A DNA stretch of 45,769 bases, taken from NCBI GenBank assembly GCA_015231305.1, contig JADGBW010000012.1, forward strand, positions 1-45,769. The letters run 5' to 3'. The notes under the pieces were generated by a model. That model was not told where the DNA came from, made no database searches, and was given only the letters and a program-made list of their open reading frames with translations. The number at the start of each line of letters is the position of its first letter. The first letter of the stretch is position 1. Source of the stretch: Magnetococcales bacterium. GTDB lineage: Bacteria > Pseudomonadota > Magnetococcia > Magnetococcales > JADFYX01. A program made the position numbers and the translations under genes. Of this stretch, positions 14,601 through 42,648 are shown piece after piece.

Positions 14601-17600
14601 GGGCAATATCACTTAAGAAATTATTGCGCTTGATCTCCTCCTCCATAGCTTTACGTTCTGTTATATTTTCAAAGGCAATTGCTGCTCCACCTCCTGCCTC
14701 TATCTTAATGGGTGCTGCACTAACACTTATCCAAACCAAATCGCCTTGGGGACGATAAACACCCATTTCAACATTAAAAATCATACCTTCACCAGCAATT
14801 ACCCTTGATGCCGGATACTCCTCAACTGGCATATCTGTGCCATCTGGTCTAATAATGCGCCAATTTCCTTCTCGCAGACCTCGCATTTTATGTTCATCTT
14901 TACTAACACCTAAAACATCCTCTGTAATTGAGTTTGCTTCGAGAATTTCTCCCTCTTTGCTGAACATAACCACACCAATAGGCAGTGCCTCAAAAAGAGC
15001 GTTAAGTTTCTCTTGAGAACGCCTTATTTTATCCTCACTCTCTCTTTTAGCCTCTTCAGCTTTAACCCGCTCGGTTAAATCATGTAATACCACCATGAGA
15101 GCAGTCCGACCTTCTAAATCAATAGTATTGAGATTTACCTCTACTGGTAATTCATCTCCATTTTTCTTCTTATGCATCCAGTCAAAACGTGTCCAACCTT
15201 TCGCAAAAGCTTCCTCTACATGTTCAGTTGAGCGTTTTTTAGACTCTCGTCCATCAGGTTGAAACTCGGGTGATATTTCTAATGGGCTGCATTGCAGTAG
15301 GTCTTCTTTGTTAGCAAACCCAAGTAGGTTAACAGCAGCTTTATTGCAAGCAACAAAGTTACCATCATCATATATCAGGTTAGGGTCCACAGAGGCTTCA
15401 AACAGTACTTGAAAACGCTCCATACTCGCCTTTAAATCTGCTTCAGCATCTTTTGCTTTGGTTACATCAGCTGTCATGGCAACAAAGTGGGTTACCTCAC
15501 CATCTTCATTGCTAACAGGGGCAATAGAAATTGAACCCCAATAGTGAGTTCCATCTTTACGGCGATTAAGAATTTCGCTCTGCCACACACCACCTTGTAA
15601 AATACTATCCCACATCTCTCTATACTGCTCTTTTGTGGTCTCTCCACTTTGTAATATGCTTGGGTTGCGACCAATTGCCTCTTGGCTACTGTAGCCAGTT
15701 ATTGTTGTAAATGTTGGGTTTACGTACTCTATAACCCCTTTTATATTGGTTATAACAACACATAGGGGGCTTTGCTCAACTGACTGCACAAGTTTACGCA
15801 ACTCTTTGGTGCGCTCATCAACCAACAGTGTTAGATATTCTTTGGTTTTATCCCCCAGCCAAATACCCATGCTGGTGGAAAATAGAGAAAGAATAACCGT
15901 TAAACCAAGTGCACCAAGAACTAAATTTCGTACAATATAATAGTTTTGTAGTGCTACATCTTTATCAACTTCTGTCGCCAGCCCTATACCAAGATGTGGA
16001 GAGTACCGCCAAACACCAAAAACTTTCACACCGCGATAATCACGGTAGCCTTCAATGTTAATTCCGTTATGTTTTGCTGTTACTTCTGCTGCCATTAAAG
16101 TTAAAGGCCATGACTCTTGTTTGTTAGCTGGCACAAATCCCGTTAGTAAATTTCCACCAGGGTCGGCAACTCTAAAGCCAAAACTATCTGTATTAAATAG
16201 TCTGTTTATATCATCTTCAAAACGTGATTCTGTAATAAAATGCCCGCTGTTATCTACTGCATAGGTCTCGCCAGTATTCATTAAACGGCCTGAACGTGTA
16301 ATGCGATTAATAGCTGTATTTGGAGAAAAACGAACGGTTAATACACCTATGATTTTATTGTTATTTTTACGGATAGGTGTTGCTATAAACATTGTCGTGG
16401 CTTTTTTATCTATGTTGCCGTTAATATCCTTAAGTGGCACATCAGAAATTGAAGGTGGAATAAACACAGTTTCACCAGCAAAAGCCCGTTTTAGTAGCTC
16501 TGGGTACTGAGTAGCAATAAGATTTTTTATACCAAGGTTGCTGTCTCGCATAGAACCAACACTGGTATAATTTGGATCTATAATAAAAAATCCTTTTGCT
16601 CTCATTCTGGCTAGGCGTGGGTTTATAAGTTCACGAATTTGGGCAAGGTTGGTATTTTTTTTAAGGTCATCTCTATTTGTAGATGACTGCAAAAGACGAC
16701 TGGCTAAGGTTATTAACTCTGGGTTGTTTGCAATATCAATTACATAATCTTCATGGCCTTCCAACCATGTTTCTAATGATTGCAGAACCGCTTTATTAAT
16801 AACCGTAAGCTCATCACCCACACCAGTTCGTATGTCAGTATTTATTCGCTTAAGAGACAACAGTGCCAAAGCAATTACCGCTGTTAAAAAAAGCACCATT
16901 GCTGCTACTCCCACCCGTCTTATTTTGGGGGAGTTAAATAGCTCTGCTCCTCGTTGAGCTGGCAGACGACTTAAAAGGCGAGGAATAACAAGGACAAAGG
17001 CAACAAGCACCGCAGCTAAAGCAATCCAAGCTAACATCAATCCATAATTAAGTTCACTCTTTAAAACAGGTAGAGAGTCCTCTTTTACTACTAACTCATC
17101 TTCAGCATAAATTGGGTCTACCAAACCAAACCATTTATTATAGATCTTGTCATATTGACCAGTTGACTTGACCATACTAAGACCCTGGTTTAAATGTACT
17201 AAAAGCTCAGAATTGCCTTCTTGAACCGCAAAACCAACCCCCCGTTCTGATATTTTTATTGGTGGGCCAGTAATTTCAATGTTGTCTAGGGCCAAATCTT
17301 TGATTAACAACAGGCTAGAAAGCCTAGTACCAAAAAGTGCATCCCCCTGTCCTTCTGAAAGCTTTTTAAGTGCTTCAGATAGAGATTTTGTTAAAATTAG
17401 GTTATGGGTAAAACCACGTTTTGTAAGATATTCGTGAGTAGCATCTCCCTTCATGACAATAACATCACGGTCTCGCAGTGCATCTAGTGATTTAATGCTT
17501 TTTTCACCCTTACGAATAAAAATGGCTGAATATGCTGCTGTATGGGAGGTTGAAAAATCGAATACCTTATCTCGTTCAGCAGAATAAGCAACTAGGGGTA

Positions 17601-20064
17601 AAGCATCAATTTCACCTTTTTCTAGTGCTGTTCTTACCTCATCCCAAGGGCCAACTTGAAATTGCGCCTTTATGCCCATGGTTTTTGCTACAGCCTTGAA
17701 AAGATCCACACTAAAGCCATCAGCCTTACCATCTTTATCCACCGTAGCAAAAGGTGGGTAATCTAGCTCACTACCCACTTTGATAACCTGCAGTTTTTTT
17801 AACTTCTCATTTTTAGAAACTGAACTATCACCAATGGATTTAATGCCTAGCCAACGACGCAATAAGGTGCGTTTTTCTTCAACTGTTACGCTAGACAACC
17901 CTTTTTCAATAATATTTAGCAAAGGCTTAGATATATCTTTACGAACACCAATCCTTACTTTAAAAATATCATTGCCTTCAAGACCCGAACGGGCAGCAAC
18001 CTTAAGACCTAAAAGGCTGTTCTTCTCAAGTGTGTAGTTAACTACTGCATGGCTGCCTATAAAACCATCCGCTCTACCAAAGGCAACCTCCTCCAACCCT
18101 TCTAAAAAGCTATTCACCAAAACTATTTCAATATTTGGATATTTAGTTTTGACAGAATCTTCAAAATAATAGCCTTTGACTATAGCTAGTTTTTTTCCTT
18201 TCATGTCATCTATACTGCCAATATCATTACGTTTTTGCTGAGTAATAATAACAATTGGATTGGTTATATAGTGTGTTGAAAAATCGGAAAATTTTCGCCG
18301 TTCAGGTTGATCAAATATTGCTGGTAATACATCAATTTTTCCAGCTTTGTATTGCTCTAAAAGCTGCGACCAACTCAAACCTTTTATAAATTCAATATTT
18401 AACCCGGTTTTCTCTCCTATAAGACGTATAAGATCTATTGAGAAACCTTGGGGTTTGCCATCTTCAATAAAGTCAAAAGGGGGCCAATCAGTTTCGTTGC
18501 CAACCTTTATCACAGGATTTGCCTCAATCCAGGCCATCTCCTCCATTGTTAATTGCAGTTGCATTTGTAAAAGGTGTGCATTGGACCCAAAAACTCTGTG
18601 TTTTGAGTTTTTAACCCAGTTACTTTCCAGCTGTATTTTTTCTTGCTGGTTAAATAAAGCCAATCCATCATTAACTTTTTTGAGCAAAGCTTTATTATTT
18701 TTAATGACGGCTCCATATACTGCATTAGAAAAATATGGTTTTGCTAACGCACTTATTTTTCCACTCCAGCCTAAATCATCTAATAGAGCTTCCATGGTTA
18801 AATCTTCACCAATGGCTGCATCTACCTCACCAGTCTTAAGGGCTTCAAGTACAGTGGCCCAACTAGGATAAGTTTTTAAATTAAGGTCAGGAACTCTGTC
18901 GCGAAGTTCACGGGCTTGATAACTCCCCTTTAAAACCCCAACTAAGCGTTCTCCAAACTGTGAAGGATCTTTAGGCAACTTGATACCAACCCGATGATAA
19001 AAACTGGAATTTATTTTATAAATGGGGCTGGAAAATTCTAAATATTTTTGTCGCTCTTTATTAAAAAATAGACCAGAATGGATATCCGCCTCACCTTGCT
19101 CCATGGCACTGAGAGTTCCTTCCCAGTTGCTCATGCGAAAACGTACTTCATTACCGGTTTTTTTTGCCCAAGCCTGCCAAAAGTCAACCATAAGCCCAGC
19201 TGGCTTGCCAAATGAAGTCATTTTGGTGAGGGGGGGATAATCACGATCCATCGCGATTATAAGTGCTTTGCCTTCTCCTCTTGAGGTCCACTTGCGTTTT
19301 ATCTCAAGTCGTTCAGCATCTAAAATAAGATCAAAACCACTGTTAATATTTTTTAAAAGGGGTTGGTTGCCTTTTGTTACAGCTACAAACCAATCGTTGG
19401 CATATAGCAATTGCGATGGTTTGATGTTATATTTATTAATTAAGTTTGCTTTTTGTAAGTGGTATATACCAGTTGGGGTATCAGCAGCAAAGGCCCTTAG
19501 TTTACCAGATTTTAAGGCATCAATAATATCATCATAACTTGAAAATGGTACAATTGCTTCAGAGGGTAGGATCTCCTTTAGAAACCCTTCAACAAAATCA
19601 CCTCGTAAAACACCAACTCTATAAGATGCCATCTCCGAAAGGTCAGAGATTGGTGGTAAGGCTTTATGAAGAAAAATGTGGGTATTGGTACGACTAAGTG
19701 CTTGACCATAATCTAAAAACTCATCTCGTTTTGCACTGAAAAACAGACCAGCATGAGCATCTACTTTGCCACTGCCTACTACTTTTAAAGACTCTGCCCA
19801 ACTATATGGTTTAAATGTTATGGCTTGATCACTCATTTTGGAAAAATGCTTCCAAAAATCAATAATCAAACCATCAGGGTTACCCTGCTCATTTTGAAAC
19901 TGAAAAGGGACACAATCTATGCAAAAGGCAACTGAGATTGGGGATTTACTATCAGTTTTAGGGCTGATATGTGGTTGTTGAGCAAACAGTTGAGAACTAA
20001 TAAATAAACCAACCCAGGCTAACAGAATATTGAACAAGAAAATTTTCTTGTATTTACAAATCAT
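11605..20064 (-). CDS. Giant hybrid histidine kinase: 4 SBP_bac_3, dCache, 5 PAS, 2 REC, HPt
   Basis: The 2819-aa protein has a signal/anchor helix (FLFNILLAWVGLFISSQLFA) and four consecutive SBP_bac_3 Venus-flytrap domains (~45-260, 270-490, 510-750, 765-990; recurring PPF...G.ADGFS.DL.. and F.FS motifs). A helix (~1015), a short basic loop and a second helix (~1060) precede a double-Cache-like periplasmic domain (~1080-1370). A third helix leads into five PAS domains (~1430-2060), HisKA (His ~2095, [10 protein letters not shown]), HATPase ([14 protein letters not shown]), receiver 1 (Asp ~2385), receiver 2 (Asp ~2533), HPt (His ~2679, HTLKGVAGNIGA) and an acidic C-terminal module. By family the flytraps bind amino-acid-like or other small solutes. 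AGGGA about 9 bases before the ATG supports the start. It is the first gene of the leftward cluster. Confidence 0.93.
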   Translation of the reverse strand: MICKYKKIFLFNILLAWVGLFISSQLFAQQPHISPKTDSKSPISVAFCIDCVPFQFQNEQGNPDGLIIDFWKHFSKMSDQAITFKPYSWAESLKVVGSGKVDAHAGLFFSAKRDEFLDYGQALSRTNTHIFLHKALPPISDLSEMASYRVGVLRGDFVEGFLKEILPSEAIVPFSSYDDIIDALKSGKLRAFAADTPTGIYHLQKANLINKYNIKPSQLLYANDWFVAVTKGNQPLLKNINSGFDLILDAERLEIKRKWTSRGEGKALIIAMDRDYPPLTKMTSFGKPAGLMVDFWQAWAKKTGNEVRFRMSNWEGTLSAMEQGEADIHSGLFFNKERQKYLEFSSPIYKINSSFYHRVGIKLPKDPSQFGERLVGVLKGSYQARELRDRVPDLNLKTYPSWATVLEALKTGEVDAAIGEDLTMEALLDDLGWSGKISALAKPYFSNAVYGAVIKNNKALLKKVNDGLALFNQQEKIQLESNWVKNSKHRVFGSNAHLLQMQLQLTMEEMAWIEANPVIKVGNETDWPPFDFIEDGKPQGFSIDLIRLIGEKTGLNIEFIKGLSWSQLLEQYKAGKIDVLPAIFDQPERRKFSDFSTHYITNPIVIITQQKRNDIGSIDDMKGKKLAIVKGYYFEDSVKTKYPNIEIVLVNSFLEGLEEVAFGRADGFIGSHAVVNYTLEKNSLLGLKVAARSGLEGNDIFKVRIGVRKDISKPLLNIIEKGLSSVTVEEKRTLLRRWLGIKSIGDSSVSKNEKLKKLQVIKVGSELDYPPFATVDKDGKADGFSVDLFKAVAKTMGIKAQFQVGPWDEVRTALEKGEIDALPLVAYSAERDKVFDFSTSHTAAYSAIFIRKGEKSIKSLDALRDRDVIVMKGDATHEYLTKRGFTHNLILTKSLSEALKKLSEGQGDALFGTRLSSLLLIKDLALDNIEITGPPIKISERGVGFAVQEGNSELLVHLNQGLSMVKSTGQYDKIYNKWFGLVDPIYAEDELVVKEDSLPVLKSELNYGLMLAWIALAAVLVAFVLVIPRLLSRLPAQRGAELFNSPKIRRVGVAAMVLFLTAVIALALLSLKRINTDIRTGVGDELTVINKAVLQSLETWLEGHEDYVIDIANNPELITLASRLLQSSTNRDDLKKNTNLAQIRELINPRLARMRAKGFFIIDPNYTSVGSMRDSNLGIKNLIATQYPELLKRAFAGETVFIPPSISDVPLKDINGNIDKKATTMFIATPIRKNNNKIIGVLTVRFSPNTAINRITRSGRLMNTGETYAVDNSGHFITESRFEDDINRLFNTDSFGFRVADPGGNLLTGFVPANKQESWPLTLMAAEVTAKHNGINIEGYRDYRGVKVFGVWRYSPHLGIGLATEVDKDVALQNYYIVRNLVLGALGLTVILSLFSTSMGIWLGDKTKEYLTLLVDERTKELRKLVQSVEQSPLCVVITNIKGVIEYVNPTFTTITGYSSQEAIGRNPSILQSGETTKEQYREMWDSILQGGVWQSEILNRRKDGTHYWGSISIAPVSNEDGEVTHFVAMTADVTKAKDAEADLKASMERFQVLFEASVDPNLIYDDGNFVACNKAAVNLLGFANKEDLLQCSPLEISPEFQPDGRESKKRSTEHVEEAFAKGWTRFDWMHKKKNGDELPVEVNLNTIDLEGRTALMVVLHDLTERVKAEEAKRESEDKIRRSQEKLNALFEALPIGVVMFSKEGEILEANSITEDVLGVSKDEHKMRGLREGNWRIIRPDGTDMPVEEYPASRVIAGEGMIFNVEMGVYRPQGDLVWISVSAAPIKIEAGGGAAIAFENITERKAMEEEIKRNNFLSDIALELTNSGYWHVDYSEPDFYYQSERAARMLGEELREDGRYHLQDEWFSRLVEANVAASEETAERYQGAIDGKYKKYDSIYAYKRPVDGKIIWLHAAGKLVRDEDGKVKYMYGVYQDITEQKAAEQLLKESEERFREGEQRLQEMLASAPIAVGIVNSKRDLVFGNQRIKEISSINVGDPVDPIYAKLEQRDAAFDIMKRDGVARDVEMAINGPDGEIREVLATFMHTVYQGEAANLGWMYDISMQKAAEKDLAKARTIAEEANKAKSDFLANMSHEIRTPMNAIIGMSYLALQTELTNKQRNYIEKVNRSAEALLGIINDILDFSKIEAGKLDMEAVDFHLEDVLDNLANLVGLKAEDKGVELLFDTAPDIPTALVGDPLRLGQILVNLGNNAVKFTEKGEIVLETKIKEIGDKTALLHFNMRDTGIGMTTEQRGKLFKSFSQADSSTSRKYGGTGLGLTISKRLTQMMQGDIWVESEPGVGSSFQFTARLGIQANPKPRMIVKREELSGLKVLVVDDNASAREILSTMAVSFGMEVVVVNDGNAALKEVANAKAKQIAFDIVLMDWKMPGMDGVSCMEQLQTEADEAPPAVIMVTAYGRDEAMQVAEQKGVVINSILSKPVTPSSLLDAIGEVLGRGVVREDGVARHSQENTVAMQALRGAHLLLVEDNEINQELALELLANGGISAKTAGNGQIALDILNSGEVFDGVLMDVQMPIMDGYTAASKIREQEKFKDLPIIAMTANVMSSDLEKAEKAGMNGHIGKPINVYEMFNTMTKWITPANPVAAVATTTNKNTAKDDILPPLPGINVEVGLDRIGGNSRSYKKLLNKFSENQNGVPDQVAMAIDDSDHELAERLAHTLKGVAGNIGAQELQKVATILESAIKEGDIDSARKILPEVAQNLDIVQTSIATLANNNTNTSDNDKPIDIAKVKVDIERLRELLEDDDAEAIEVVERLSEQLANSPYSSSLNKIEKAVGGYDFDGAIEHLENLSNNFNT

Positions 20065-20950: not shown

Positions 20951-23497
20951 TTATTTATAACCTACCTCCAACTTTTTATATAAACGATGGGCTACACCCA
21001 TTGGCGCTGCTTGTTTTCTCTCTATCGACTGAACATCACGTATTGTAGTAGCCTTAAAAGGTTTAACAGTTAAAGGTGGGGTTGCTTCTCCACGTGTCTG
21101 GTTATTAGCTGCATTTTCTGGTTTTTTATTTTCCAGTATCACACTCTTTTTTGGAGTTACAGCAACACTTTCTTTATCTCCTGATGGACCTTTTGCCCCC
21201 ATGGGACCTTGTTTTCCTGAAAATCCAATTATACCTCTCTCACCCCTAGGGCCAGTATCTCCTTTTGGTCCACGCTCACCTTGTTTTCCTTGCTTTCCTT
21301 CCACCCCAATTGGGCCAATTGCTCCCACCTCCCCTTTTTCTCCGACATCCCCTTTGGGGCCAGTCTTCCCTTGAGGTCCAGTATCCCCTTTTGGGCCAAT
21401 TTCTCCTTTTACTCCTTGCTCTCCTGGTGTGCCTCTGGGTCCAGGTCTACCTTTAAGACCTTGCTTTCCTCTATCCCCTGGCTCCCCTTTAACACCTTGC
21501 CTGCCTTTTGCTCCTGTATTGCCTTTTTTGCCCTGTTTTCCTTTGGCTCCAGGTTTGCCTTCAGGGCCAACTTTCCCTTGTGGTCCTGGTTCACCTTTGT
21601 CGCCTTTTTCTCCTATTTTCCCATTTTCTCCTGCTGGGCCAACCTCACCTTTATCACCTTTTTCACCTTTATCTCCCCGCTCCCCTTTTTCACCTGTATT
21701 ACCTATTTCTCCTTTAGGGCCAACTTCACCTTGTGGGCCTTGCTCTCCAACATCACCTTTAGGGCCAGACTCACCTCTATCACCTTTGGGACCAGTTAGC
21801 CCTATAGGACCAATATCTCCTTTAGGGCCAACTATACCCTGTATACCTTGCGCGCCATCTTTACCTGCCGGACCTGTTTTTCCTAATGGCCCATGATCAC
21901 CTTTATCACCTTTAATACCAGGCTCTCCCTTATCTCCTTTTTCACCAGCTGGACCTGTTTTTCCTACTGGGCCAACAGCTCCTACTGGGCCAACTTCACC
22001 TGTTTTACCCATTGGACCTGCTGGGCCAACTTCACCTGTTTTACCCATTGGACCTACTGGACCAACTTCACCTGTTTTACCCATTGGACCTGCTGGGCCA
22101 ACTTCACCTGTTTTACCCATTGGACCTACTGGACCAACTTCACCTGTTTTACCCATTGGACCTATTGGGCCAATTTCACCAACTGGACCCATTACACCAG
22201 CTGGACCTTGAGCACCAACTGGTCCAATTTCTCCTTTTTCTCCTACATCTCCTTTAGGGCCAGGCTTTCCTTCAATGCCAGGCGAACCATCTGCCCCTTT
22301 TGGGCCACGCTGACCAATATCTCCTTTTATTCCGGGAACACCTTGCTCACCCTTTTCACCGCGTTCTCCTTTTTCACCACGTTCACCCTTTTCACCGCGT
22401 TCACCCTTTTCTCCTGGCACTCCCTTTGGGCCAATTTTACCCTCTTTGCCAGTCGGACCAATAGGACCAATAGGACCAACCTGCCCAGTTATATCTATAG
22501 ATTTAATCTCTTTTTGCAGTTGAGATACCTTGTAGTCAACACGGGTGATTGGCTCATAAATATTTTTAGCAAAAAGATCGGCAATTATGGTTTCCAACAT
22601 ATCCAGAGATGGTGTCTCTTTTTGACTGTTTTTTTCACCCTGCTCAATTTCTCCTCGAAGGGTTAAAATATTTCTCATCCATCTCTTTTCATCTTTTATC
22701 TTAACTTCATGCCTAAATAAGGCTTGGCTCATACTGTTAAACTCTTCAACAGATTGATGAGGAATTCCACCTATGGGTTGTAACTGATGACCATAATCAC
22801 CTAGCTTGATCAGCGACATACCGTTTTGTAGATAATTAACCCCACTTTCAAACCAAACCCTAAACAGGTACCAAATAACAAGCATAGAGAATAAAAAGAA
22901 GAGACTACATATAGTTATGTCTTGTCTGCTGGCAGCAGTGCTAATATGATTTATTGCTGATTTTTGTACTAAAAAACTAGTAACACCATGCAGGGTTGGT
23001 TTTATCCTCTCACTTTTATTTTCTGCTTTTGCTAATTGCAACCAGATAGGGTGAAAATATTGATACACCTCTTTTTCATTATCATCTAGATTAGTAACAA
23101 ACCATACTTTAGCCTCTGAATTATTTTGAAAATATTTAAGTGCTCTGTTCTCAATGTCGTTACTATTGTCACTTTGAGGAACCATTCTATTTAAAATATA
23201 ATTAAACTGCATATCTACTGGATATTGCTCTTGATAACTATTGAAAATTTTAACCATTACTTGTTGAGTAAGAAAATAGTCCATAGTCAAGCCAGAAAAC
23301 TCACCAGAAACAGAGCTTTTTTTCTTAAATTCTTGGGCTGAAACAGTCAACAACTGGTGGATTTGAGTTGTTTTATCTTTAAGGATCTCTATACCGTCTC
23401 TTTGTGTACGGCTAGAAATAAGATACTCAAATAAGACGATATTCATCAAAAAGAGCAGAGCTATAATAGTTACAGTCCATAGCCTAGACATTATCAT
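20951..23497 (-). CDS. Membrane-anchored collagen-like protein with predicted extracytoplasmic sensor domain
   Basis: The 848-aa protein has TM1 at ~6-27, an extracytoplasmic region (~30-190) and TM2 at ~193-217 (SLFFLFSMLVIWYLF). A HAMP/coiled-coil-like stretch follows (~218-330), then an uninterrupted Gly-X-Y collagen domain (~337-772, about 145 triplets rich in GPx, GEK and GPK) and a basic 75-aa tail ending LYKKLEVGYK. The 30-190 region resembles the Tll0287-like (DUF3365) sensor fold around NDIENRALKYFQNN, but no CxxCH heme motif is present. With a short basic N-terminus inside, the positive-inside rule puts the collagen part in the cytoplasm, which is odd. A 36-bp tandem repeat lies inside. 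AAGGA 8 bases before the ATG supports the start. Function unknown; it is surrounded by signalling genes. Confidence 0.88.
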   Translation of the reverse strand: MIMSRLWTVTIIALLFLMNIVLFEYLISSRTQRDGIEILKDKTTQIHQLLTVSAQEFKKKSSVSGEFSGLTMDYFLTQQVMVKIFNSYQEQYPVDMQFNYILNRMVPQSDNSNDIENRALKYFQNNSEAKVWFVTNLDDNEKEVYQYFHPIWLQLAKAENKSERIKPTLHGVTSFLVQKSAINHISTAASRQDITICSLFFLFSMLVIWYLFRVWFESGVNYLQNGMSLIKLGDYGHQLQPIGGIPHQSVEEFNSMSQALFRHEVKIKDEKRWMRNILTLRGEIEQGEKNSQKETPSLDMLETIIADLFAKNIYEPITRVDYKVSQLQKEIKSIDITGQVGPIGPIGPTGKEGKIGPKGVPGEKGERGEKGERGEKGERGEKGEQGVPGIKGDIGQRGPKGADGSPGIEGKPGPKGDVGEKGEIGPVGAQGPAGVMGPVGEIGPIGPMGKTGEVGPVGPMGKTGEVGPAGPMGKTGEVGPVGPMGKTGEVGPAGPMGKTGEVGPVGAVGPVGKTGPAGEKGDKGEPGIKGDKGDHGPLGKTGPAGKDGAQGIQGIVGPKGDIGPIGLTGPKGDRGESGPKGDVGEQGPQGEVGPKGEIGNTGEKGERGDKGEKGDKGEVGPAGENGKIGEKGDKGEPGPQGKVGPEGKPGAKGKQGKKGNTGAKGRQGVKGEPGDRGKQGLKGRPGPRGTPGEQGVKGEIGPKGDTGPQGKTGPKGDVGEKGEVGAIGPIGVEGKQGKQGERGPKGDTGPRGERGIIGFSGKQGPMGAKGPSGDKESVAVTPKKSVILENKKPENAANNQTRGEATPPLTVKPFKATTIRDVQSIERKQAAPMGVAHRLYKKLEVGYK
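21989..22168 (-). repeat. 36-bp tandem repeat, 5 units, in the collagen-like gene
   Basis: Five consecutive near-identical 36-base units encode the 12-residue block MGKTGEVGP(V/A)GP. The V and A variants alternate V-A-V-A-V, so the array may have grown by duplication of a 72-base double unit. It stays in frame and in Gly-X-Y register. The length is likely to vary between strains by slippage or unequal recombination. Confidence 0.9.
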
Positions 23498-25618: not shown

Positions 25619-28600
25619 TTGAGACACTGGCTGGACAGATTTCCTCTAGCTATTCAAGCCGTTGTTGTCGGCTTATTAGTAACTATATTAATTAGCTTTG
25701 GGATAGATCGCTTTCAATCTTCACGTTTTAGAGGTATAGCATCTTATGCTTTACATAAAGAACTTGGGCATAACCTACATGTCGCCCGAGAAAGTATGGA
25801 CAGCTATAAACAACAATTCAATAACCTCTCTCGTTTGTTAGCAGAAAATTACCGCCTTATACACTACACTAATACCAGCACCTGGCAAAAAAACAAAAAA
25901 ACTATAACAAACAAAACCCCGCCTCAATGGCTCCCCCATGTTGGTATGTGGCGCAATGTACTGCCTAGCCATTTTCTACTTTTCTCCAAAGATAAGCAGC
26001 TAAACGAAACCTACTCACCCACAGGAGAGACAATACCTAATTGGATTATACAACAACTATCTCACTACCTAGATAAAAGTAACAACCAAGCCATTACCAC
26101 GGGCACTAAAGATAAAATTTCTTTTATTACTACTTCTACTATAAACAGCGATATTGATGGCAAGCCTGTAGGATTTCTTATGCTCATAAGGGAGATAAAT
26201 GACAACCTTATGAATAAAATTTATCCTTACATTGGAGACGATGGGCAAGTTGTATTAATAATGGCACACTCTCCCACACGTGTGATTGCCGATAACCTAC
26301 CCCATGATATCGAGGAGAACCGGCTTGAAACTATTTTAAATAATTATGAGATAGTCGGTAAAGAATATGAAAATGGTAGCAGCTCTGAGGTTGCTATTAA
26401 CCTTGCTGTTGTGGCTAAAAAAAGACGCGTGCAAGAGTTTATCGATCATCTTTTAGGTGAAGAGAGACTTTCACGAATTTTAATGGCTAGTATTTTAATT
26501 GCTGCACTTTTAGGGCTGGCCCTTATTGTTGTCTTTCGAGTTCGTAAGTTAACAGCAGGTGTACACAGGGCTTCTCAAGAACATCTCGGCATTACTATTG
26601 AGAGCAATAGGTTTGGTGATGAATTATGCATACTTTCTCAAGCTATGTCGAAACTAGAAGAGAGCAATGCACGGGCTTTAAGGTCCAGGGCCATAATTAC
26701 TGAGTTAGTGCGTGCAGGAAAAAAACATAAAAGCTTAACTTCCTTAATGGAAAAGTCCTTAAGACTATTACAGACTGGAACATGGCAGATTAAAAATAGT
26801 AAGGGGGCTATTTTTCTTATAAATGCCAAGAGTAAAGAGCTAGATTTAACGGCGCAAAGCGGTCTAGAAAAAGATTTTGCCAACAAATGCAAAACATACA
26901 ATTTAGGCCATATACTCTCCTTACAAACGGTTAAAAACAGAGAAATACTTTTTATCGAAAAAAATGAAAATGATCACGAAATATATTCTGATGGTTTATT
27001 TGAACACGGCTACTACTCCATACCAATTATTTCACAAAACAGTTTATTGGGTGTTATAATACTTTTTCTTAATGAAAATATTGTAATAGATACAGAGGAA
27101 GAGGACTATCTATGGAGCATATCTCATAGTATAGCTAGCTTGTTAGAACATTTTAATACTGATCATTTATTAACTGAAGCTAAAAAATCTGCTGAGCTTG
27201 CCAACCAAGCAAAAAGTAATTTTTTGGCCAATATGAGCCACGAAATTCGCACCCCCATGAACGCTATTATTGGTATGGGGCATCTTTTATTAAAAACTGA
27301 GATATCTGATAAACAACATGATTATCTAAATAAAATTCAGGGGGCATCACGCACTTTACTTGGTATTTTGAATGATATTTTGGACTTTTCCAAAATTGAA
27401 GCAAATAAACTGCAAATGGAAAGTGTGAATTTTTCAATAAAAGATGTACTACAAAACGTCACTGACATAATTATCACCAAAACTGATGAAAAAGGAATTG
27501 AGTTAATACATAATTGCCACACTGACACTCCATTGAACCTAATTGGTGACCCACTACGTCTTGGTCAGGTACTTATTAATTTAGCTAATAATGCCGTGAA
27601 GTTTACGGATTCGGGAAAGATAATAATTTCCATTGAGCCTGCACATCTCACAGAAAAATTTGCTTGGCTTAAATTTTCAGTAAGCGATACAGGCATAGGA
27701 TTAACCCAAAAGCAAGTTGATAATCTTTTTGTTGCATTCAGCCAAGCCGATACATCTATTACCAGAAAATATGGTGGAACTGGACTTGGATTAACTATCT
27801 GTGAAAGATTAGTAGGTATGATGGGTGGCAATATTAGTGTTAAGAGCGAACATGGCAAAGGGTCGGTTTTCTCCTTCACAGCAGCTTTTGATATCCAACC
27901 CCAACACAGTGTAACAACCTTAGATAATTTAAAAAATATAGCTAAAAACGACAATACTACCACTAAATTATCTCCAAAAATTGCACAAATAGAATCTGAA
28001 TTACGAGCAACAATTGGAGGAGCAAAAGTTTTATTGGCTGACGATAGCTCTATCAATCAACTAGTTGGCAAGGAAATTTTAGAAGACCTCGGTCTAGCTG
28101 TCACAGTTGTAAATAATGGTCAAGATGCGGTTGATATGGCTAAGGAGCTACATAAAAATATTGAGATAATATTTATGGATCTGCAAATGCCAATTTTGGA
28201 TGGTTTTGAGGCAACAAAATATTTGCGCAGTGATCCTGATACAATGAACATTCCCATTGTTGCTATGACAGCTCATGCGATGATTGGAGATAAAGAGAGA
28301 TGTCTTTTAGCAGGCATGAACGACTACGTTGCTAAACCTATTGAGCTTGACCAGCTATATGCATGTCTGAAAAAATGTGTAAAACCCAGAAAAATTGACA
28401 AAACAGCCTTACCACAACCCCAAAAAAATAAAAGAGAAGATATGAACCTACCAGATGCACTTCCTGGAATAAACATAGAAAATGGTTTAGCTCGTGTTGC
28501 TGGAAATAAACGCCTATTTCACGAGTTAGTTACATCTTTTCTAAAAATTAACATTTCAGTTGTTTCAGAAATTAAAATTGCCCTTGGTGAAAATAATAGA

Positions 28601-29071
28601 GACAAGGCACTAAGGCTGGTACACTCAATTAAAGGAACCTCTGGCAGTATTGGAGCTTTTGGGTTGTCCACATCTGCAAAAGAGCTGGAGAAGAACATTA
28701 AAGAGGGAGACGACAACTCTATTTATGATGCTCTTAAGCACTTTGAGGTATCTCTGCAACCAGTATTTAATTCTGCTAAACTTCTGGAAGATAACTTTAC
28801 CATACAAAATTCTGCTATAGATCCTGAGATGGTTATAGAGTTAGACAAAGGGCAAGTTACACAACTAATTGCAACTTTAAAACAGTCTCTTTTAAACAAT
28901 GATATGCTGGCAAAAAAACAGTTGGTAAATCTTGAAAAACACCTCTATGGTCATGGCTTTAAAGAAGAGGTCGATACATTAAAAGATAATATTAAATCTC
29001 TAAATTTTAGCAGTGCTTTAAAGTCATTAACTGTTGTTGCAGATAAATTCGGCATAGAAAGAGAGCTGTAA
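25619..29071 (+). CDS. Hybrid histidine kinase: TM sensor, HAMP, GAF, HisKA, REC, HPt
   Basis: The 1150-aa protein has TM1 (~12-30), an unrecognised periplasmic domain (~35-283), TM2 (~286-307) and a HAMP-like stretch. A GAF-like domain (~370-515) and HisKA ([15 protein letters not shown], His ~540) follow. The HATPase has DTGIGL and [14 protein letters not shown] receiver (Asp ~853, [12 protein letters not shown]), HPt ([12 protein letters not shown], His ~1001) and a C-terminal ~70-aa helical module complete it. All catalytic residues appear present. The start is TTG at 25619 with AGAGGGG about 10 bases upstream. The stop lies 5 bases before the next kinase, so the two are cotranscribed and probably one system. 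The ligand is unknown. Confidence 0.92.
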
Positions 29072-29076
29072 CCATA

Positions 29077-31848
29077 ATGGAATTTGAAAAAGATAAACTC
29101 CATTCGATCTTAATTGTGGATGATGAACCTAGCAACATTGAACAACTCAATGAAGCCCTTCAGGATGAATATCGCATTCTATTTGCCAGAAACGGTGAGG
29201 ATGCGTTAAAAATCGCAGAAACCCAATACCCAGATCTTATTCTGTTAGATATCATGATGCCCGGAATGGGCGGACATGAAGTATGCCAGCGATTAAAAGC
29301 CAACCAAACCCTATGCAATATACCAATATTTTTTGTAACTGCTATGACAGATATTGCCGAGGAAACTGCTGGCCTAGAGATGGGGGCAGATGACTATCTC
29401 TCCAAACCCATTAATCCATCTTTGGTAAAAGTACGGGTAAGAAACCGACTTAAAATTAAAAAAGCAGAAAAATTAATTATTCAGGCTTACGAATATTTAA
29501 AACACAGTGAAGCACGTACAAGAGCAATTTTAGAAAATGCATTAGATGCCATAATTACAATTGAGCAAGACGGTAAGATTCTTGAGTTCAACCCAGCAGC
29601 AGAAGAACTTTTTGGCTTTACAGCTGATAAAGTTATAAATAAAAATTTATCTACTCTAATTAATCAATATAAACTTTTAGATGCCATCATTGAAGATATT
29701 GCATCACAAGCAAAACAGAAACATAGAACCCCCAATGTAAAACGTAGGATAAAACTACCAGGTAAACGCGCCGATGGTAATATTGTAAACCTTGAGATAG
29801 GCCTAACTGCTATTTTACAAAAGGGACAACTGACATACACCTGTTTTATCAAAGATATTACCGACTACAAACAGTTATTATCTTCATTAAGAGAAACCTT
29901 GGCTGTGGCAGAATCGTCCAACCAAGCTAAAAGTGAATTTTTAGCCAACATGAGCCACGAAATACGCAGCCCTATGAATGCTATAATGGGTATGACAGAG
30001 TTGGTTTTGGCAACAGAACTTAATGAAAATCAACAAGAAAACCTAGAGATTGTGCAAAGTTCAGCTAACAATTTAATGACTCTCATAAATGATATATTAG
30101 ACTTTTCAAAAGCTGATGCCGGACAACTTTACCTTGAGAAAATTCCGTTTGATCTTCGAGGAATGTTAGAGAATAACTGCGATAACCTAGCAGTTTTAGC
30201 TCATAAAAAAGAGTTAGAACTCTATTTTGATGTAGCCGACAACATACCACCATTGGTTGGCGATCATTTACGTCTTAGCCAAATTATCACCAACCTAGTC
30301 AACAACGCCTTTAAATTTACAAACGAAGGTGAAGTTTCCATACTGGTAAAGAAAAATGACCAAGTAAAATGTCGTAAAGACCATATATGTTTACATTTTA
30401 CTATAACAGATACCGGTATTGGTATTCCTGCTGATCGTCTCACAACCATTTTCGAACAATTTACCCAGGTCGATGCCTCAACAACCCGTAAATACGGTGG
30501 TACTGGCCTTGGCCTTACGATATCCAAACGTTTGGTGGAGTTAATGGATGGTGATATTTGGGCGGAAAGCCAAGAAGGCATAGGAAGTGTTTTTCACTTC
30601 ACAGCCAAATTTGGAATTGGCTCAAGGTCGAAAACAATACCCCTTAAAAAGTCTATTAAAAGAGATATACAGCTATATCAACCTTCTCACCTTTTGGGTA
30701 TTCGCATAATTATTGCTGACAGCCATAAAACTGGAAGAACAATAATAAAAGCCATGATGAAGCGGTTTGGAGCAGAAATACAAGATGTTGCTAGTGGTTC
30801 TTCCCTGCTAAATGCTCTACGGCTGTCAAAACAAAACAACTACCCTTTTGATGTGGTTATAATAGATAATGAACTAGACTTTACCCATGAAGAAAGCTTA
30901 GAGATTTCATCTCTTTATACTAACAACATAATAATGATGCTGCCAACCAATATGAGCTATCCGCAAAATGCTCCTGGTTATCAAACTCAAGTTGACAATT
31001 CTCTTAAAAAACCTATAAAACAATACGCGCTACTTAAAAGAATTGACCTTATAATAGGGCGAATAACTAAATCTGAAACCATAAAAACAACGGCAAAAAC
31101 AGCTACTAAACTATCAATAAATTCTCTTAATATTTTACTGGTAGATGATCTCCCCACCAATCAAAAACTGGCCTATGATATTTTAACCCAAGCTGGTCAT
31201 AATGTAGTTGTGGCAAACAATGGCTATGAGGCATTACAAAATTTAGAGAGTGACCCATTTGATTTGGTACTTATGGACCTTCACATGCCAGAGATGGATG
31301 GTTATGAGGCAACTAAACGTATCCGTAACGGCGAAGAAAATGGTAAATGGGACAAAAACATCCCTATAGTCGCTGTAACTGCCCACGCTATGCAAGCAGA
31401 GACAAAAAAGTGTCTTGATGCTGGTATGAACAAATATTTAAGCAAGCCATACAGTGCATTAGATCTGCTGGGTACAATAGAGTCTTTTGCTAAAAAGCAG
31501 AATCCAAAAACTAGCAAAAAAATTCCTAAAAAAGAGTCTCCAATAATAATAAAGGTAAAAAGTGATGCTGAGACATTAAAAACTTTACAAAATAGTTTTC
31601 TTACACAAGGACCACAACACTTAAACCTACTGCATCAAGCCTTAAAAGATAAAAGGCTTGTGCAAACCTTAAAAGAGGTAGACTGGATTAGAAATGCTGC
31701 TTCTGGCATCGGTGCTAACCGGGTTAAAATTAGTGTGATACTTCTTAAAGGAGCTGTTGAGATGAAACAGTGGAGCGAATCTCTTAATATTTTTGTTAAC
31801 CTTAAGGAAGAGTTTAAAAAGGTTGTTGAGGTTTTAGAAGAGAGATAA
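29077..31848 (+). CDS. REC-PAS hybrid histidine kinase with degenerate HPt
   Basis: The 923-aa soluble protein has receiver 1 (~8-125; Asp ~58, LILLDIMMPGMGG) and PAS (~150-265). HisKA follows ([15 protein letters not shown], His ~292), then HATPase ([20 protein letters not shown]), receiver 2 (~545-665) and receiver 3 (~685-810; Asp ~732, LVLMDLHMPEMDG). The C-terminal ~95 residues are HPt-like. Receiver 2 is weak: the phosphorylation site reads VVIIDNELD and the acidic pocket is IIADSH. In the HPt-like end the motif expected as AHTLKG.AGNIGA reads VDWIRNAASGIGA, so the phospho-His is gone. Phosphate would have to leave through another HPt. It has no membrane segment, so its input is likely the upstream kinase through receiver 1. 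Confidence 0.92.
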   Translation: MEFEKDKLHSILIVDDEPSNIEQLNEALQDEYRILFARNGEDALKIAETQYPDLILLDIMMPGMGGHEVCQRLKANQTLCNIPIFFVTAMTDIAEETAGLEMGADDYLSKPINPSLVKVRVRNRLKIKKAEKLIIQAYEYLKHSEARTRAILENALDAIITIEQDGKILEFNPAAEELFGFTADKVINKNLSTLINQYKLLDAIIEDIASQAKQKHRTPNVKRRIKLPGKRADGNIVNLEIGLTAILQKGQLTYTCFIKDITDYKQLLSSLRETLAVAESSNQAKSEFLANMSHEIRSPMNAIMGMTELVLATELNENQQENLEIVQSSANNLMTLINDILDFSKADAGQLYLEKIPFDLRGMLENNCDNLAVLAHKKELELYFDVADNIPPLVGDHLRLSQIITNLVNNAFKFTNEGEVSILVKKNDQVKCRKDHICLHFTITDTGIGIPADRLTTIFEQFTQVDASTTRKYGGTGLGLTISKRLVELMDGDIWAESQEGIGSVFHFTAKFGIGSRSKTIPLKKSIKRDIQLYQPSHLLGIRIIIADSHKTGRTIIKAMMKRFGAEIQDVASGSSLLNALRLSKQNNYPFDVVIIDNELDFTHEESLEISSLYTNNIIMMLPTNMSYPQNAPGYQTQVDNSLKKPIKQYALLKRIDLIIGRITKSETIKTTAKTATKLSINSLNILLVDDLPTNQKLAYDILTQAGHNVVVANNGYEALQNLESDPFDLVLMDLHMPEMDGYEATKRIRNGEENGKWDKNIPIVAVTAHAMQAETKKCLDAGMNKYLSKPYSALDLLGTIESFAKKQNPKTSKKIPKKESPIIIKVKSDAETLKTLQNSFLTQGPQHLNLLHQALKDKRLVQTLKEVDWIRNAASGIGANRVKISVILLKGAVEMKQWSESLNIFVNLKEEFKKVVEVLEER

Positions 31849-39128: not shown

Positions 39129-39659
39129 ATGGCCGATCAACACCAAGATAGTCCTAAACTACCAGAGCAAAAAGCTTCGGGTATTGGGCAATCTGAGAAG
39201 CCTAACCTAAGCCCGGAAGATCAACTTCTGGCAAGACGGCGTAAACTACTAAAAGGTTTGGTGGCTGGTGTTCCAGCTATTATTACCTTGCAAAGTGGTG
39301 CTGCTTTAGCTGGCACATCCATACCTCGTGCTTGTTTGGATACTAGCCAGGGAAAAAAACTAACAACTATGAATGTTGGGGGTCGCTGTAAAACTGCGGG
39401 TGCAGTGACAGGTAATGAAGAGTGGCATTATGCCCCACCCCAAGGCAATACATCTGTATTTGGTGTAAATAGCGGACCAGGTGGCGGTACAAAATATTGC
39501 TTACCCTACATGACAGCTAATGGAATATTAGCTACACAAAACCAACCAGCAGCTAACAGATGGGGAGCATTAGCGACAGGTGGTGGTACAGATGCTGGGC
39601 CAGTAAGTGGTACTTATTATGCTGTAAAACAATCATGTTGGACCTCTTTTTATCGTTGA
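39129..39659 (+). CDS. Small Tat-leader exported protein, four cysteines after the leader
   Basis: I prefer the second ATG (39129, 176 aa), which has GGGGAA about 7 bases upstream; the track start is 6 bases earlier and sits on the Shine-Dalgarno. A polar ~35-aa N-terminal extension leads to a twin-arginine signal, RRRKLLKGLVAGVPAII, and an LQSGAALA-G cleavage site. The mature ~115 residues are Gly/Thr/Asn-rich with four Cys (RACLD, GRCK, KYCL, QSCW), enough for two disulfides, and end CWTSFYR. No catalytic motif is visible. The Tat route suggests folding or modification before export. It opens the PqqD-HprK-like gene set and is a natural candidate for their substrate; that is inference. Confidence 0.8.
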   Translation: MADQHQDSPKLPEQKASGIGQSEKPNLSPEDQLLARRRKLLKGLVAGVPAIITLQSGAALAGTSIPRACLDTSQGKKLTTMNVGGRCKTAGAVTGNEEWHYAPPQGNTSVFGVNSGPGGGTKYCLPYMTANGILATQNQPAANRWGALATGGGTDAGPVSGTYYAVKQSCWTSFYR

Positions 39660-40025: not shown

Positions 40026-40957
40026 TTATTGCCGATTTAAGCAATCGTGAGTTGACACGTATCCTAAATGGTCCTGGTCTACGTTGGGGTTCTGGTCCTT
40101 TTTCAATCCACCTTAAAAATTCCATCCCAAATTTTACCGACTATTTATCTCTAATTTACGGTGGGCATCCAGTTATTGAGGAGCCTTGGGAAGATATTGC
40201 TGATTTTCATATACAACTTACAACAAACTCTAACTATCGCCGTTTTTGGAAACCACAGGTCTTTTTTCAGCTAGATGGAGTAAACCATCTTGCACCTTTT
40301 CCCAAAGATCATGCCCCACCAATGTTTGAATGGGGCTGGAACTTTTCAATTGCAGGCCGGGCCAACCATTTTTTAATACTGCACAATGCGGTTATTGCCA
40401 AAGGAGACCGGGCCATGTTGTTGCCAGGAATACCCGGCAGTGGCAAAAGTACCCTTTGTGCTGCCATGGTTTTAAGAGGTTGGCGGTTGTTGTCTGATGA
40501 GTTCGCCTTGTTACATCCTGAGAGTGGTCTTGTTTTTCCAACTGCTCGCCCTATTGCCTTAAAAAACCAATCCATAGAGATAATTCGTGAATTTTCTAAA
40601 GATGCTATCTTAGGTCCAGATTTTGCCAAAACCCGTAAAGGCACAGTGGCCCATATGCGCCCCCCTGATGATAGCATTAAAAATATGGACCAAGTTGCCA
40701 AGCCTACATGGGTAGTCTCTCCACATTATCAAGAAGGACAAAACCAAATTTTAGAACAGATACCCAAAGAGCACGCATTTTTACTTGTGGCTGCTAATGC
40801 CTTTAACTATGAAACATTAGGAGATGCTGGCTTTAAAGCAGTCGCTCGTGTTGTTAAAGAGTCTACTATTTTTAATTTTCGCTATAGCAACCTTGAAGAG
40901 GCTGTTGAAACCCTGGAAATAATGACCAATAACGATAAAAAAGGTCTAGCTCCATGA
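40022..40957 (+). CDS. HprK-related kinase A
   Basis: The 311-aa protein has a P-loop LLPGIPGSGKST (~135-147) and an LLSDEFALL acidic motif about 20 residues later, arranged as in the C-terminal domain of HPr kinase/phosphorylase. The N-terminal ~110 residues are specific to this family (WEDIADFHIQL). Bifunctional HprK phosphorylates HPr Ser46; no HPr or PTS gene is nearby, so a different protein or peptide is probably the target. Homologous HprK-like kinases tailor some lasso peptides by phosphorylating a C-terminal Ser. ATGA overlaps link it to both the preceding PqqD-like gene and the next gene. Confidence 0.88.
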   Translation: MIIADLSNRELTRILNGPGLRWGSGPFSIHLKNSIPNFTDYLSLIYGGHPVIEEPWEDIADFHIQLTTNSNYRRFWKPQVFFQLDGVNHLAPFPKDHAPPMFEWGWNFSIAGRANHFLILHNAVIAKGDRAMLLPGIPGSGKSTLCAAMVLRGWRLLSDEFALLHPESGLVFPTARPIALKNQSIEIIREFSKDAILGPDFAKTRKGTVAHMRPPDDSIKNMDQVAKPTWVVSPHYQEGQNQILEQIPKEHAFLLVAANAFNYETLGDAGFKAVARVVKESTIFNFRYSNLEEAVETLEIMTNNDKKGLAP

Positions 40958-42648
40958 TTATTCAACCCTTAAAACAGAGAATTCTCTATCTGCCTCTGTT
41001 TTTTCACCGTCGTAAATTAACATGGTTAGCCCAAAAACTCTGTCTTTTGTTCCTACGTTTTCGCCCTATACATCCTGAGCTTATCCATCAGCTGGTACAA
41101 ATATTATCCCAAAGTGACCAAATTGGGATTGCAATTCGACTATTAAAACAATACCTACAGCAAAACCCGCAAAACCCCTATCTTCATATAAGCTTAGGTA
41201 ACGCTTATATGTCATGTCAAAGACTAGAAGATGCCGCAAAATGCTTCCGTAAGGCTTTAGCCATACAACCCAATATGATAGGAGCACTTATAAGTTTAGG
41301 TAGTGCGCTTACTCAACTAGGCAGGGTTGATGGGGCCATGAACTGCTTTTTTAAGGTTATAGAATTAAGGCCGAATTTTCCCAATAGCTACCACAGTATC
41401 GGTATACTTTTTTTAAGAGACAGCCAACCTGAGCATGCTATCCCATATTTTGAAAAAGCCTGCCAACTAAATCCTAAAATGGCATTCGCCTTTATACATA
41501 TGGGCCATGCATTAACCGAATTAGGCCGTTTTAAAGAGGCTGAGGAGTCACTACTTAAAGGGTTGGCTATTGAAGAAGGAAATGCAGGAGGTTACAGCAG
41601 CCTAAGCGAGCTAAAATCTGATGATAAAAATAGCTCTCATCTAAACAAAATGGAGATATTACTACAAAAGAATATCTTATCTGCAAACGATCAAATTCTT
41701 ATGTATTTCTCTCTGGGCAGAGGGTATATGAGACAAGGGGAGAAGGAGCGTGGCTTTAGGTTTTTATCTCAAGGTAACCAGGTCAAAAGGGCAAGTTTCC
41801 ACTACGAAATAAACCAAGATGCAGCCTTTTTTAACCGTATTGTAAATTGTTTTGATACTGCTTTATTAGAAAAGTGTAAAGGTTTTGGCTCACCTTCTAA
41901 AGTACCTATTTTTATACTTGGCATGCCACGTTCTGGAACCACTCTTGTAGAGCAAATTATTGCTAGTCACTCTCAAGTTTATGGAGCTGGTGAAGGTATG
42001 GGGCTTTGGCATTTGACCGATGAGCTGGCTCTTTTGACCAAAACCAGAGAGGGTTTTCCTGAGGGTGTTAGAGAGATAGAGCAAAATTCTTGGCATGATT
42101 TAGCCCTGGCTTATGAAGGAGGTCTTAGGGAAAAATCAGCAGATGCTCTGCATATCACTGACAAAATGCCCCATAACTTTTTAAATGTTGGTCTCATCCA
42201 TTTAATGTTTCCCAATGCTGTTATCATCCACTGTAAAAGGGAGGCTATAGATACCTGTCTTAGTATCTATATGCAAAACTTTACCGGTCACCATCCCTAC
42301 TCCTATGATCTTACAGAGCTTGGAGAGTATTATCAGCTTTATCATGGCCTTATGGGCCATTGGCAAAACGTGCTGCCCAACCGTATGCTTGAGGTGCAGT
42401 ATGAACAGATGGTGGAAAAACCAGAACAGACAGCAAAAAAAATTATTGCCACTTGTGGGCTGACTTGGGAAGATGGCTGTATGGATTTTCATAAATCTAA
42501 TCGTGCAGTCCACACCGCAAGTTTAGTTCAAGTACGTAAGCCAATTTATAAAAGCGCAGTTAGTCGCTGGAAAAAATATGAAGCACAACTAAAACCTCTC
42601 ATAGAAGCCTTGGGAACTCTGGCTCCTAGCAAAAAAGAAGAGGGTTAA
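40954..42648 (+). CDS. TPR-sulfotransferase fusion
   Basis: The 564-aa protein has TPR repeats at ~40-220 (e.g. PYLHISLGNAYMSCQRLEDAAKCF, NSYHSIGILFLRDSQPEHAIPYF) and a sulfotransferase domain at ~315-555. The PAPS 5'-phosphosulfate loop is PIFILGMPRSGTTLVEQII. HITDKMPHNFLNVGLI and the 3'-phosphate-region block IIHCKREAIDTCLSIYMQNF are typical of the Sulfotransfer_1/3 group fused to TPRs. It would move sulfate from PAPS to a sugar, tyrosine or peptide. ATGA overlap couples it to the kinase. Whether the target is the exopolysaccharide or the small Tat protein is open. Confidence 0.9.
   Translation: MIIQPLKQRILYLPLFFHRRKLTWLAQKLCLLFLRFRPIHPELIHQLVQILSQSDQIGIAIRLLKQYLQQNPQNPYLHISLGNAYMSCQRLEDAAKCFRKALAIQPNMIGALISLGSALTQLGRVDGAMNCFFKVIELRPNFPNSYHSIGILFLRDSQPEHAIPYFEKACQLNPKMAFAFIHMGHALTELGRFKEAEESLLKGLAIEEGNAGGYSSLSELKSDDKNSSHLNKMEILLQKNILSANDQILMYFSLGRGYMRQGEKERGFRFLSQGNQVKRASFHYEINQDAAFFNRIVNCFDTALLEKCKGFGSPSKVPIFILGMPRSGTTLVEQIIASHSQVYGAGEGMGLWHLTDELALLTKTREGFPEGVREIEQNSWHDLALAYEGGLREKSADALHITDKMPHNFLNVGLIHLMFPNAVIIHCKREAIDTCLSIYMQNFTGHHPYSYDLTELGEYYQLYHGLMGHWQNVLPNRMLEVQYEQMVEKPEQTAKKIIATCGLTWEDGCMDFHKSNRAVHTASLVQVRKPIYKSAVSRWKKYEAQLKPLIEALGTLAPSKKEEG

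Follow-up and report, generated by a model that had tools for sequence, protein, structure and literature searches.

Gene content of the locus

The window, i.e., the whole stretch of 45,769 nucleotides that was analysed, is contig C84 of the Magnetococcales MAG G000, a close relative of which (L022) is a public Magnetococcales MAG. On the forward strand, an ORF at positions 39129–39659 encodes a 176-aa twin-arginine protein with four Cys and a C-terminal end of the type [ST]CWxS[FLI], hereafter called the precursor and assigned below to class A. Two in-frame ATG codons, namely 39123 and 39129, are candidate starts for the frame closed by the stop at 39659, the latter being favoured since a MADQ start is common to the close homologues and the GGGGA spacing is better. 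The ORF is confirmed as genuine, chance being rejected on the grounds that homologues occur in 35 of the 61 genomes searched (E-values from 1e-98 to 1e-3), all 35 among the 48 genomes of the order.

The precursor is the first gene of a cassette, as judged from the overlapping or tightly spaced run directly downstream on the same strand, which comprises (i) PqqD_rel_X (TIGR04353; 39693–40025; 53.3 bits for a cut-off of 35), a discrete RRE-type peptide chaperone, (ii) the HprK_rel_A kinase (TIGR04352; 40022–40957; 364.3 bits for a cut-off of 200), (iii) an accessory TPR and Sulfotransfer_3 protein (40954–42648) present only in some Magnetococcales, (iv) an NTP_transf_5 nucleotidyltransferase (PF14907; 42658–43767; 180 bits), a core gene with a single genomic copy, and (v) an amidotransferase of the XrtA/PEP-CTERM system (TIGR03108; 43742–45631; 921 bits for a cut-off of 816.9), which belongs to the EPS context and not to the core. 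Upstream of the precursor, two XrtA-system glycosyltransferases (TIGR03087, 36632–37861; TIGR03088, 37869–39029), both on the forward strand, complete this context. Both marker proteins, HprK_rel_A and PqqD_rel_X, score above their curated cut-offs and place the locus in what NCBIfam names the "HPr-rel-A system", where TIGR04353 is entitled "HPr-rel-A system PqqD family peptide chaperone". Neither Pfam nor NCBIfam holds a model for an HPr-rel-A precursor; the terms HPr-rel-A, TIGR04352 and TIGR04353 are not mentioned in the literature searched, nor is HprK in the RRE surveys searched. No ABC exporter was seen within the window and no SipW-type SpI-like peptidase was found in the cluster, the genome having a single Peptidase_S26 match, on contig C155.

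The AF2 model of PqqD_rel_X (pLDDT 85) has as best PDB folds the lasso RREs TbiB1 and TfuB1 together with PqqD (TM-scores by target of 0.67–0.74), and its sequence profile gives a weak match to TfuB1 (E 0.05); computation thereby assigns the predicted structure to the RRE fold. In HprK_rel_A, the conserved sites are a P-loop (G139–T144), H121 and D159–E160.

Elsewhere in the window, hybrid kinases are packed unusually densely into a block made up of positions 5515–9384, 11605–20064 and 25619–31848; the second of these ORFs, on the reverse strand, encodes a 2819-aa hybrid histidine kinase with solute-binding-like, PAS-like and receiver-like stretches as judged by eye. Adjoining sensor-kinase genes, an 848-aa protein (20951–23497, reverse strand) has an N-terminal membrane segment followed by a long collagen-like Gly-X-Y tract.

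The twin-arginine signal and the conserved residues of the precursor

The first-pass annotation had described a protein lacking any recognisable enzyme domain, with a small, Gly/Thr-rich mature part and four Cys, and this description stands: searching Pfam and NCBIfam with the precursor matched no domain, and the 115 residues following A61 include 19 Gly, 14 Thr and the Cys residues 69, 87, 124 and 170, the protein ending with CWTSFYR. AF2 predictions for four precursor sequences reached a pLDDT of 39 and these models were not used. A substrate of the PEP-CTERM/XrtA system was considered and rejected, the C-terminal CWTSFYR end being devoid of a hydrophobic segment or sorting signal.

The twin-arginine motif RRRKLLKG (residues 36–43; 39234–39257, forward strand) is followed by the h/c region LVAGVPAIITLQSGAALA (residues 44–61; 39258–39311, forward strand), a candidate RRE-binding segment ending with AALA. 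The predicted signal peptidase I site lies after A61, a residue present in 88% of the aligned Magnetococcales precursors. In the alignment of 32 Magnetococcales precursors, R37, R38, K42, P49, T53, C69, C87, C170, W171 and S173 are invariant, while the four Cys and the C-terminal CWxS are found in 32/32. The label "Tat" is based on the conserved RRxLLK, the h-region and the AxA, together with the TatC gene found in the genome; as originally proposed, the precursor is thus probably a Tat substrate, going by these signal features. The generic Tat model TIGR01409 (TAT_signal_seq) does not match the window precursor and gives 11.7 bits with an alphaproteobacterial relative, i.e., below the cut-off of 16.7. 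Across the other classes, the RR pair is retained in almost all precursors and is replaced by KR in one relative (L036).

The RR pair (residues 37–38) is preceded by 36 mainly polar residues, in keeping with the long stretch noticed at first reading, where it had been likened to a RiPP recognition leader. This likeness did not hold. The extension varies from 12 to 58 residues in Magnetococcales, is reduced to 5–14 in some other classes and, with 1.26 bits per column, is the least conserved part of the precursor, as against 3.67 bits in the RR motif and 3.12 in the h/c region. With so little conservation, the extension does not qualify as recognition leader; a leader, if there is one, would be the hydrophobic core of the Tat signal. 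As regards the question of what homologues conserve, the Cys and the C-terminal CWxS are kept and the extension is not; the mature middle averages 1.70 bits per column and the terminal SCWTSF 3.72.

Two Ser residues may be candidate acceptors in view of their conservation, which has no obvious structural reason. The first, Ser64 (codon 39318–39320, forward strand), is the third residue beyond the predicted cleavage site and lies 15 residues after P49; the second, Ser173 (codon 39645–39647, forward strand), belongs to the C-terminal CWTSF and is invariant in 32/32. Counting from the h-region Pro, or from the Ser or Ala that replaces it in sphingomonad-like precursors, 38/43 class A proteins have a Ser at +15, and their position +12 is mainly Ala or Thr. 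In ordinary Tat signals from the same genus, 2/17 Pro anchors have a Ser at +15. The 43-protein set having been gathered with a C-terminal pattern, the C-terminal statistic relies on the 32 proteins collected by homology.

Precursors fall into two classes. Class A, found in Magnetococcales, sphingomonad-like alphaproteobacteria, Nitrosomonas and others, has a C-terminal end of the form [STA][CA][aromatic or I]xS[FLI]. Class B, found in other beta- and gammaproteobacteria as well as in L034, lacks both the +15 Ser and CWxS but exhibits an invariant Ser pair after the signal, directly after the first Cys, and often also an SPGYWKN-like motif. Whereas the mature parts of the two classes do not align, an alignment is obtained for their signal modules (HHalign probability 96%, E 3e-9, from RR to the Cys region), which designates the signal as the shared, selected element.

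Distribution and linkage to the cassette

Within the order, the precursor is present in 35/48 genomes and HprK_rel_A in 36/48, and the two co-occur (Fisher p 2e-10, uncorrected for phylogeny) with a sole mismatch, i.e., the 57%-complete genome G047. In the phylum, HprK_rel_A exceeds its cut-off in 61 of 399 genomes, and 54 of these 61 have a twin-Arg ORF linked to it, by our own tally from the locus tables; such an ORF is also present in 11/11 further complete, non-duplicate loci from the species-genome collection. This linkage reaches from alpha- to gammaproteobacteria. The constant set across classes consists of the precursor, PqqD, HprK and NTP5, while glycosyltransferases, sulfotransferase and amidotransferase vary between loci. 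The partnership of the precursor with the cassette is well supported, and with such a protein adjacent in 54/61 genomes and 11/11 loci, precursors being too divergent to align beyond the signal, the notion of an ordinary hypothetical Tat-exported protein standing incidentally beside the cassette, for which its lack of a recognised domain could be invoked, is already contradicted by synteny and most improbable.

The precursor was not found in three HprK_rel_A genomes, namely G047, G267 and G213, nor in the loci L077 and L093. Of the four genomes in which HprK lies apart from the precursor, three keep the precursor next to PqqD: in G005, G017 and G019, HprK is on another contig and PqqD remains the neighbour of the twin-Arg gene, the exception being G011, where the precursor is next to neither gene. 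With PqqD, sequence distances correlate at a partial r of 0.20 for the signal and 0.34 for the mature part, so that the signal does not stand out as the part tracked by PqqD.

Several loci depart from the usual arrangement. In L116 (1530–2323; G013:C66), a second precursor copy has its own PqqD in a kinase-free vicinity; as the kinase of this genome lies elsewhere with its own pair, one kinase may serve two precursors. In L111 (1197–1760; G011:C72), the precursor is found beside a short Cys-containing protein, YkgJ-like by eye, instead of PqqD. In L124 (near −432 from HprK; G046:C129), the signal is intact and the +15 Ser present, and the reading frame is closed by a stop some 46 residues beyond RR, possibly as a frameshift or a shortened form. 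In L028 (8104–9594) and L031 (5689–7107), both among the 11 further loci, the precursor is downstream, as two tandem class B copies 3' of HprK, the upstream gene being HslV-like by eye. L034 (JADLDX010001005.1), another of these 11 loci and a 4.2-kb contig labelled Pirellulaceae, carries an HPr-rel-A cassette with a class B precursor, which may reflect true transfer or mis-binning.

Proposed function and comparison with known systems

We consider it rather probable that the precursor is the partner of the HPr-rel-A cassette and in all likelihood serves as its substrate, being modified in the cytoplasm and then exported via Tat. Modification ahead of export had been suggested from the precursor itself and looks probable given its near-constant neighbours, i.e., a PqqD-type RRE, an HprK-like kinase and a nucleotidyltransferase. 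From binding to export, we infer the following steps. The PqqD-type RRE would bind the precursor in the cytoplasm, probably along the conserved hydrophobic h/c region of the Tat signal, and may also keep it from the translocon. HprK_rel_A would then phosphorylate either Ser64, the third residue of the exported protein, or Ser173 in the C-terminal CWxS, and the PF14907 enzyme would add a nucleotidyl or sugar group onto the Ser phosphate. Upon release by the RRE, the precursor would be exported by Tat and cleaved after A61 by a housekeeping signal peptidase I (presumably the match on contig C155), whereupon the four Cys could pair outside. The exported product would probably act in or on the exopolysaccharide of the same locus. 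A more specific version, which we consider tentative and somewhat doubtful, is that the Tat signal is itself the leader read by the RRE, so that a segment of about 30 residues would both recruit a Ser kinase and a nucleotidyltransferase and gate export; in that case, the phospho-glycosyl protein so released could prime or anchor this exopolysaccharide.

Among the alternatives, PqqD could be a Tat-proofreading chaperone and nothing else, with the kinase and nucleotidyltransferase acting elsewhere, e.g., on a polysaccharide precursor, and the Tat protein reaching the surface unmodified and disulfide-bonded to work with the exopolysaccharide. REMP chaperones provide a precedent (PMC3316669), the pair of PqqD and precursor stays intact where HprK is elsewhere, the locus is rich in glycosyltransferases and Cys conservation would account for Tat or oxidation with no Ser chemistry; against this, HprK_rel_A and NTP5 belong to the four-gene core across classes, enzymes of like kinds target Ser residues of lasso peptides and LPPs, and Ser64 and Ser173 are conserved in a way that structure does not obviously explain. 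On balance, this explanation appears unlikely. Export by a route other than Tat seems quite improbable: here, the precursor would still be the cassette substrate, but its RR segment would serve as a Sec signal or as an RRE leader that is kept, and the protein would exit via Sec or another route. The failure of TIGR01409, the strong hydrophobicity of the h-region, the KR pair of L036 and the Sec signals of MNIO bufferins (PMC12452194) speak for it, whereas the invariance of R37, R38 and K42 in 32/32, the retention of RR in almost all other classes and the presence of TatC speak against it.

Under the favoured reading of a cassette substrate modified before Tat export, the findings suggest that, in bacteria with the cassette, a protein receives a phosphate or sugar tag in the cytoplasm before leaving through the Tat pore. 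In the NCBI annotation, the HPr-rel-A system has a "peptide chaperone" and a kinase with no described peptide family; a candidate is now available in about 60 genomes and brings two specific Ser to test. If this reading is true, RRE-guided phosphorylation would extend beyond small ABC-pumped peptides to Tat-exported proteins and a signal peptide could double as a leader. It would also offer a handle on the role of the kinase and nucleotidyltransferase module, which recurs in lasso peptides and LPPs.

Compared with known systems, the cassette is identical to the HPr-rel-A system of NCBIfam (TIGR04352/TIGR04353), which comes without a precursor model and for which a candidate is supplied here. 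By enzyme kind, it resembles the LPP clusters of Bacillota (PMC13381572), where a discrete RRE, an HprK-like kinase and an NTP transferase likewise accompany a precursor; in the window, these correspond to PqqD_rel_X (by sequence family and fold), HprK_rel_A and the PF14907 enzyme. LPP precursors of 35–200 aa also have a conserved N-terminus and a variable C-terminus and are found in polysaccharide loci. Their leader motif YxxPxVLxHQxIxFETxxS is cleaved after the Thr at +12 and the Ser at +15, which is core position 3, is phosphorylated in a kinase-dependent manner; LppN deletion caused no change in the heterologous host used (PMC13381572). The same layout is seen in the window precursor, i.e., a Pro-to-Ser distance of 15, a predicted cut after +12 and a Ser at what would be core position 3; of the [Y/W]xxP motif of lasso and LPP leaders, the Pro is present and the aromatic at P-3 absent, and since the layout is short and this aromatic is missing, the match, striking as it is, is taken as suggestive. 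A dedicated SipW-like peptidase, an MsbA-like exporter and the [Y/W]xxP leader are particular to LPP, whereas the HPr-rel-A cassette has a twin-Arg signal in place of the leader, a Cys-containing mature protein and mainly Pseudomonadota as hosts, with neither a local peptidase nor an ABC exporter in view.

Phosphorylated lasso peptides, such as paeninodin and pseudomycoidin, share with the cassette a B1-type RRE, an HprK-like kinase and a nucleotidyltransferase acting on Ser, and some lasso clusters carry a sulfotransferase as does the window cassette. In the case of pseudomycoidin, Ser is phosphorylated by the kinase, and the addition of one or two hexoses requires the nucleotidyltransferase homologue (PMC8498205, PMC9266682). 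Ser173 is reminiscent of the Ser at the C-terminus of kinase-modified lasso peptides but is not the last residue; moreover, no B2 protease is seen and the precursor is a 176-aa Tat protein. A lasso peptide cluster as such was rejected, with no cyclase above cut-off (NF033535, 282 versus 525 bits), the nearest Asn-synthase homologue in this lasso protein C test being the XrtA amidotransferase TIGR03108.

MNIO bufferins and oxazolins (PMC12452194) also have long Cys-containing RiPP precursors in which an export signal replaces the classical leader and modification precedes export, but the signals are of the Sec and not the Tat type and the enzymes are iron oxidases instead of a kinase and a nucleotidyltransferase. 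In its working, the proposed system comes near the REMP chaperones TorD and DmsD, dedicated chaperones that recognise Tat signals by their h and c regions (PMC3316669) and delay export until maturation; their fold is unrelated, PqqD_rel_X being predicted as an RRE-type winged helix.
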